The notes below the pieces were generated by a model. The model did not search any database. It was not told where the DNA came from and worked only from the letters and a program-made list of their open reading frames with translations. This document shows, piece after piece, positions 9,635 through 9,767 of a stretch of 10,119 bases of DNA; the first letter of the stretch is position 1; every line of letters starts with the position of its first letter. Origin of the DNA: Acidobacteriota bacterium (GTDB lineage Bacteria; Acidobacteriota; Terriglobia; Acidiferrales; UBA7541); contig QHYO01000574.1 in NCBI GenBank assembly GCA_003224135.1, positions 1 to 10,119 on the forward strand, in the 5' to 3' direction. The translations under genes were made by a program, and so were the position numbers.

Positions 9635-9668
9635 AAAATAAAAAAGGCCCACTCTGTGCGAGTGGGCC
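9635..9668 (-). terminator. Intrinsic terminator/attenuator in the DAHP synthase leader
   Basis: On the minus strand GGCCCACTC (9668-9660), loop GCACA, GAGTGGGCC (9654-9646) makes a perfect 9-bp GC-rich stem followed at once by T6-A-T4 (9645-9635). It lies 25 nt after the stop codon of the aromatic leader ORF and about 100 nt before the structural gene, the classic place for an attenuator. A 5-bp hairpin GAATC/GATTC (9683-9669) abuts it and a 6-bp hairpin GCGTTT/AAACGC (9704-9689) spans the leader stop codon. The segment GTGTGGC (9716-9710, leader codons 18-20) can pair with GCCCAC of the first terminator arm (one bulge) as a possible antiterminator. Confidence 0.88.
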
Positions 9669-9692
9669 GAATCTTTTCGATTCTAATTGCGT

Positions 9693-9767
9693 TTACAGAA
9701 ACGCCCCCCGCCACACATATGAGTGGTCCGTAAATCGATACCAAAACCAATAAGGGGTCTGAATCAT
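9693..9767 (-). CDS. Aromatic-rich leader peptide of the DAHP synthase attenuator
   Basis: A 24-codon ORF starts with ATG at 9767 and stops with TAA at 9695-9693. Nine residues are aromatic: Y6 W7 F8 W9 Y10 F12 (PYWFWYRF), then Y17, W19 and F23 (SYVWRGAF). Such density fits a ribosome-mediated attenuator sensing charged tRNA-Trp, -Tyr and -Phe, the end products of the pathway its downstream gene initiates. Codons 13-16 contain GGACCACTC, matching 8 of 9 bases of the terminator's first arm; this is what is expected if both segments compete for the same partner (regions 1 and 3 of a trp-type attenuator). There is no Shine-Dalgarno; the predicted transcript begins at the ATG. I infer that stalling in the aromatic run favours antitermination, while free passage to the stop codon lets the terminator form. 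Confidence 0.85.
   Translation of the reverse strand: MIQTPYWFWYRFTDHSYVWRGAFL

Follow-up and report, generated by a model that had tools for sequence, protein, structure and literature searches.

The aroF locus and its upstream region

The window, i.e. the whole stretch of 10,119 nucleotides that was analysed, belongs to the incomplete genome of a soil acidobacterium, in 804 contigs (G000). Its aroF gene codes for a DAHP synthase that scores 489.7 bits against NF006421 and matches both PF18152 and PF00793 in Pfam. The nearest named AroF relatives come from acidobacterial MAGs, several of them labelled gp2, and share at most 89% identity with it; solved structures related by sequence to this enzyme include 4grs, 1vr6 and 1rzm. 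Downstream of aroF, the next ORF is on the opposite strand (8028-8405, +) and codes for a small protein with a PIN-domain match. The window also harbors a Ser/Thr kinase with TPR repeats (4040-6307, -).

A preliminary description of this region had reported an aromatic-rich ORF of 24 codons, a 9-bp hairpin with a T6 tract and then the DAHP synthase gene, all of which were confirmed on the minus strand (Table 1). The aromatic residues of the leader peptide are Y6, W7, F8, W9, Y10, F12, Y17, W19 and F23. The terminator hairpin (GGCCCACTC-GCACA-GAGTGGGCC, 9668-9646, 9 bp, followed by TTTTTTATTT) has a folding energy of -18.7 kcal/mol, and the stretch 9790-9630 folds 2.9 standard deviations better than its shuffles. 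Two smaller elements that had been pointed out within the leader are also present, namely GGACCACTC (9729-9721), which shares 8 of its 9 bases with the first terminator arm, and GTGTGGC (9716-9710). It had also been proposed that the enzyme is doubly controlled, by attenuation and by a feedback domain; the second control is a prediction drawn solely from the PF18152 domain match.

Other DAHP synthase copies are present in G000 on contigs C681 and C306; C598 has a partial match, and C574 a weaker relative. Neither the C681 (L002) nor the C306 (L003) copy showed an aromatic leader plus terminator in an upstream scan, L002 being preceded by a GTG ORF with five aromatics and without hairpin.

Table 1. 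Coordinates of the features of the aroF leader region in the window
Feature	Position	Strand	Basis or remark
-35-like hexamer TTGCTT	9797..9802	-	17 nt before -10; poor match to TTGACA
-10-like hexamer TACACT	9774..9779	-	6 nt before leader ATG
Leader ORF MIQTPYWFWYRFTDHSYVWRGAFL	ATG 9767 to TAA 9693	-	24 codons, 9 aromatic
Sensor codons 6-12 (Y W F W Y R F)	9732..9752	-	ORF translation, orthologue comparison
CGA-TTT codon pair	9732..9737	-	nucleotide-level conservation in most of the leader family
GGACCACTC, mimic of terminator 5' arm, proposed segment 1	9721..9729	-	role without statistical support
Segment 2 (GTGTGGCGGGGGGCG), antiterminator strand for terminator arm and loop	9702..9716	-	duplex -18.7 kcal/mol, p=0.04 vs shuffles
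Segment 3, terminator 5' arm GGCCCACTC	9660..9668	-	core CCCACTC kept in 84/95 relatives
Segment 4, terminator 3' arm GAGTGGGCC	9646..9654	-	hairpin
T tract TTTTTTATTTT of terminator	9635..9645	-	sequence
aroF, DAHP synthase with ferredoxin-like N-terminal domain	8491..9543	-	NF006421, PF18152, PF00793

Conservation of the aromatic leader among orthologues

Orthologues were collected with the enzyme only, giving 80 named loci, 62 of which (L006-L067) are at 69% identity or above, with 59 usable; L047, L053 and L067, truncated or with too little upstream sequence, were left out of the detector test. A strict detector asked for an ATG ORF of 10-45 codons with at least five W/Y/F in 10 codons, followed by a hairpin of at least 8 bp with a T run, and a looser rule for the aromatic leader asked for an ATG and at least four W/Y/F in 8 codons. 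An aromatic leader is present in 50 of the 59 orthologues (42 by the strict detector and eight more by the looser rule). Upstream of DAHP synthases below 63% identity, the strict detector fired in one case of 18 (L084).

The same detector found nothing in 1180 dinucleotide shuffles, as against 42 of the 59 real orthologues. Together with the 50/59 count, this refutes the explanation that an aromatic-rich ORF lies by chance beside the ordinary terminator of another transcript, which could draw only on the p=0.04 that the single window gives for its antiterminator and to which we assign practically no probability.

Orthologues devoid of both the codon run and the hairpin had been named beforehand as evidence against an attenuator. 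The comparison did not refute it, although the looser rule finds no aromatic leader in nine of the 59 orthologues (L010, L026, L029, L033, L039, L046, L049, L054 and L057). These include the close orthologues L010 and L026 (83% identity), which counts against the attenuator reading. L026 keeps a bare CCCACTC terminator without leader, and L033 has a weaker candidate (MYYRRPGSFRFSSF) that falls below the leader rule. L010, L026 and L099, all at 83% identity and without aromatic leader, offer a chance to study the loss of the attenuator.

The remainder of the leader drifts (SYWFRFW, SFRFWFR, YRWYRFT and FSYRYWSF, for example) while the aromatic run persists. Alignment A1 was made without 8 of 57 rows. 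Trp, Tyr and Phe are all present in 97 of 101 non-redundant leaders, a set whose figures are partly circular, because 47 of its members are matches to a covariance model derived from 49 enzyme-selected leaders. The 54 enzyme-selected leaders alone give the same picture as the full 101, with all three aromatic residues in 53 of 54.

Some records deserve separate mention. L084 (labelled Pirellula) and L062 (labelled only "bacterium") carry aromatic leaders with unrelated terminators before aroF, and may represent independent cases. Both aroF and the leader are also found in L041 (labelled Bordetella parapertussis, 78%) and L024 (Betaproteobacteria, 85%), two records whose taxon labels look wrong.

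A promoter-like signal close to the leader start codon

In 51 of 58 leaders, the ATG is preceded at a distance of 6-11 nt by a TANNNT hexamer, as opposed to 3 of 226 other ATGs; these 58 starts were picked without using the -10, which had been one criterion in another choice of starts. TTGC is the family majority at the -35 distance, with only 3 of 6 bases matching TTGACA in 46/86. Shine-Dalgarno-like sites precede 6 of 101 leader ATGs versus 82 of 101 aroF starts. In the window, GCCAAC separates TACACT from the ATG, so that transcription starting 7 nt after TACACT would have the A of the leader ATG as its first base. A 2011 survey (PMC3160421), in the portion available, takes a -10-like signal located some 10-12 bp ahead of the start codon as a mark of leaderless genes and places Acidobacteria among the groups that have them. 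The position of the -10 and the scarcity of Shine-Dalgarno sites suggest that the leader mRNA is probably leaderless.

Terminator, antiterminator and the proposed protector pairing

The terminator finder detected a hairpin with a T run in 95 of 101 relatives and missed six. A strand lying between the sensor codons and the terminator (GAGTGGG, GAGTGGCGTTGG or GGCGAGGGGCG, for example) pairs with the 5' arm plus its flank or loop. This 2:3 pairing is above shuffles (p≤0.05) in 72 of 95 leaders and in 45 of 57 of an overlapping set, rows that are related sequences and not independent. For the window itself, it is only modestly above shuffles (p=0.04). The competing strand announced in the preliminary description does exist, but the extent given there (GTGTGGC) was too small, since the actual strand covers 9716-9702 and reaches into the terminator loop.

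Partners were swapped among 45 leaders with the AG[TC]GGNG motif. The TTGG/CCAA extension pairs in 168 of 180 cells, whereas swapping gives 162.9 ± 1.5 and reached 168 in 6 of 2000 trials. Partners from one species thus match each other better than partners from different species, an effect that is real but small because the paired strands vary little. In L163 all three strands changed in step (CCCACCC/GGGTGGG/GGGTGG), L180 shows a matched change in the antiterminator, and both helices are kept with different sequences in L110 and L111.

A 1:2 pairing as in classical attenuators, also part of the preliminary description, found no general support. It is weak in the window (-5.9 kcal/mol; local hairpin p=0.84) and exceeds shuffles at p≤0.05 in only 8/95 or 20/95 leaders according to two tests. 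A general 1:2 protector was therefore rejected, few leaders being above shuffles and the window not among them. In L028 and L045, a hairpin is found inside the sensor region instead (p=0.016).

Under an assumed ribosome footprint, the length of segment 2 that is hidden has a median of 10 nt (minimum 0) for a ribosome at the stop codon, and of 0 nt (maximum 7) for one at the last sensor codon. Segment 2 lies beyond the stop-codon ribosome in some leaders (L034, +11), which counts against the attenuator reading. When the RNA of the window was folded through segment 3 with a ribosome at codons 6-10 or 12, the antiterminator formed (segment 4 being unmade by construction), and the RNA beyond a stop-codon ribosome formed the terminator (segment 2 being hidden by construction); these outcomes partly follow from the choice of the stretch left free. 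Without a ribosome, RNA that ends with segment 3 adopts the antiterminator, and full-length leader RNA adopts the terminator.

We also considered translational attenuation, where stalling would make the ribosome-binding site of aroF accessible or inaccessible and the hairpin would be no terminator. The Shine-Dalgarno-like sites before aroF would suit such a scheme, as would the end of the hairpin lying 20-60 nt before the gene start at many loci, but the T run after the hairpin in 95/101 argues for termination, segment 2 pairs with a terminator arm, and the distance from leader start to gene (127-357 nt) is more variable than that from leader stop to hairpin (21-51 nt). We judge this scheme very unlikely.

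The CGA-UUU codon pair

CGA encodes the arginine of the leaders in 75 of 90 cases when Phe follows, in 1 of 20 when Tyr follows, in none of 11 for Trp and in 12 of 100 for other residues. Among the 54 enzyme-selected leaders, CGA precedes Phe in 49 of 53 cases. The hexamer CGATT[TC] occurs 75 times in frame and twice out of frame, and Phe is encoded by TTT in 232/287 leader codons versus 1277/3490 in long ORFs. One family of a hand-made list (f6) breaks the CGA rule (2/8).

Several explanations were rejected. Ordinary Arg-Phe codon bias does not account for the pair, CGA being used in 42 of 275 Arg-Phe pairs in long ORFs of the same loci, and neither does CGA as a general slow codon, given its rarity before Tyr and Trp. 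A pairing between the sensor region and the spacer that follows segment 2 reaches p≤0.05 in only 6/94.

Two ideas may be considered, namely that CGA is decoded slowly ahead of a sensor codon, or that CGA-UUU serves as an RNA processing signal. The near-fixed pair could conceivably represent a slow Arg step before the Phe sensor codon that tunes stalling (or a processing mark), so that the attenuator of a leaderless mRNA would sense the charging of tRNA by way of a deliberately slowed pair, a speculation that we consider rather unlikely.

Distribution and other leaders in the phylum

The covariance model from 49 leaders was run with strict filters on samples of 299 genomes of the class and 396 genomes of the phylum, and because of these filters misses in either sample do not prove absence. 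At least 135 of the 299 class genomes have a match of any kind at E≤0.01, many of them to the terminator part alone, and full-length matches occur in several families of the class. In the phylum sample, 21 of 396 genomes have a match at E≤0.001, including three strong ones, all in the class; no strong match to the model was found outside the class among these 396.

Loci L116-L226 (n=111) comprise model matches and stretches chosen by hand from the match list. AroF is present in 95 of them and absent from 16: L166 and L167 are short stretches truncated at the end of a contig, in L212 an aromatic leader is accompanied by an AroF-like start, L200 and L117 (with L220, the same site as L117) have Cys leaders, and ten are weaker matches of 24-32 bits, half of them partial. 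In L206 (150-330) and L209, the DAHP synthase directly downstream of the same attenuator is devoid of the ferredoxin-like domain, as judged by Pfam for L206 and by length and match start for L209.

Leaders rich in other residues, or before other genes, were also encountered. Cys-rich leaders (MQMRCQTMCCCCDCCCCRQ... and MNVSCQTICCQTDCCMCRET...) in L117:1483-1640 (G000:C68, +) and L248:1640-1800 (G004, -) are followed by a GCCCACGTG terminator and then by a gene of the nitrite/sulfite reductase family (PF01077/PF03460 in L248), and represent a probable cysteine attenuator. L200:1300-1450 (-) has a Met/Cys-rich leader (MTTLRQMPMCMNNSCCSCVLFGTSGG) with a AGCCCACTC terminator upstream of an ORF for a PF03601 membrane protein (1108-5). 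In other families of the phylum, aromatic leaders (..TYSYWWWPSG.. in L229:640-780 and ..LSYWYWFTG.. in L235:1500-1650, -) with GCCCACC terminators precede the gene for anthranilate synthase component I (TrpE). These Cys and Trp leaders suggest a wider set of attenuators in the same phylum.

Comparison with known systems

The trpL and pheL attenuators of E. coli are laid out as a leader peptide, a 2:3 antiterminator and a 3:4 terminator. The acidobacterial leaders share these three elements, but differ in that Shine-Dalgarno sites are rare, no 1:2 pairing is generally supported, and three amino acids are read at the common first step. Rfam Trp_leader (RF00513) and Phe_leader (RF01859) remain below their cut-offs in the window (19.2 of 41 and 29.8 of 55 bits, respectively), and no T-box is among the eight Rfam matches to E≤5 in 9400-9950; the scan rejects a riboswitch or T-box identity among Rfam families. 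A comparative survey of attenuators is said to have been made by Lopatovskaya in 2010, and a paper of Neshat from 2014 is reportedly on the aroR-aroF attenuator of Corynebacterium glutamicum.

According to the accessible text of PMC11802643, the aroR-aroF attenuator of C. glutamicum has a Phe-Tyr-Phe leader peptide and responds under Phe limitation; this aroF leader is also treated in PMC4046766, as far as its available part goes. As described in those portions, it resembles the system proposed here in its aromatic codons, ribosome stalling and position upstream of a DAHP synthase gene, and differs in its phylum and in having Phe-Tyr-Phe instead of Trp, Tyr and Phe.

Leaderless attenuators are described, in the excerpts at hand, for C. 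glutamicum ilvL (PMC11857589), Sinorhizobium meliloti trpL (PMC7298713) and mycobacterial polycysteine ORFs (PMC9031893). In these excerpts the leader AUG is at or beside the 5' end, as proposed here, whereas their amino acids, genes and phyla are different, and our 5' end is a prediction from the promoter.

The S. meliloti case raises the question of whether the leader RNA or peptide acts in trans, like rnTrpL/peTrpL, with attenuation being secondary. Each firing of the attenuator would yield a leaderless RNA some 127 nt long that codes for a 24-aa peptide, and the available part of PMC7298713 reports trans action of such products, yet, as judged by eye, the peptide residues that do not belong to the aromatic run vary from family to family, and we regard a primary role in trans as extremely unlikely.

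Among open-licence PMC papers, in the text accessible for them, no description of a DAHP synthase attenuator in Acidobacteria was found, and an earlier mention is possible. Attenuation at DAHP synthase is already known from Corynebacterium aroR, and here it would take a three-amino-acid and probably leaderless form in Acidobacteriota.

Proposed mechanism and significance

The preliminary proposal of a ribosome-mediated attenuator reading Trp, Tyr and Phe together agrees with the family-wide observations, i.e. the parts and their spacing, the conserved aromatic run with a drifting remainder, the pairing potential of the retained terminator and antiterminator, and some compensatory changes. On this comparative sequence basis, the system is very probably a ribosome-mediated transcription attenuator of DAHP synthase, and it likely responds to all three amino acids.

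We infer the start site, stalling, termination and response to each amino acid as follows. Transcription would start at or within a few nucleotides of the leader ATG, as indicated by the position of the -10, so that the mRNA would be leaderless and the ribosome would load on its 5' AUG, trailing the RNA polymerase. With well-charged Trp-, Tyr- and Phe-tRNA, it would reach the stop codon and cover segment 2; segment 3 would then pair with segment 4, and transcription would stop in the T run near 9640. A shortage of any one aromatic amino acid would stall the ribosome in YWFWYRF, leaving segment 2 free to pair with segment 3 and the terminator loop, and the polymerase would continue into aroF.

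According to the part available of a 2010 survey (PMC2965389), almost no attenuator predicted in Acidobacteria and other such phyla has been associated with a function. E. coli, in the accessible text of PMC11802643, uses separately inhibited isozymes and repressors for aromatic synthesis. The phylum would gain a defined, testable attenuator at the entry to aromatic synthesis, where one peptide would read all three end products. Moreover, the approximately 100 natural variants, with their probable leaderless start and near-fixed CGA-UUU, may help to understand how codon choice and initiation mode set the sensitivity of an attenuator.
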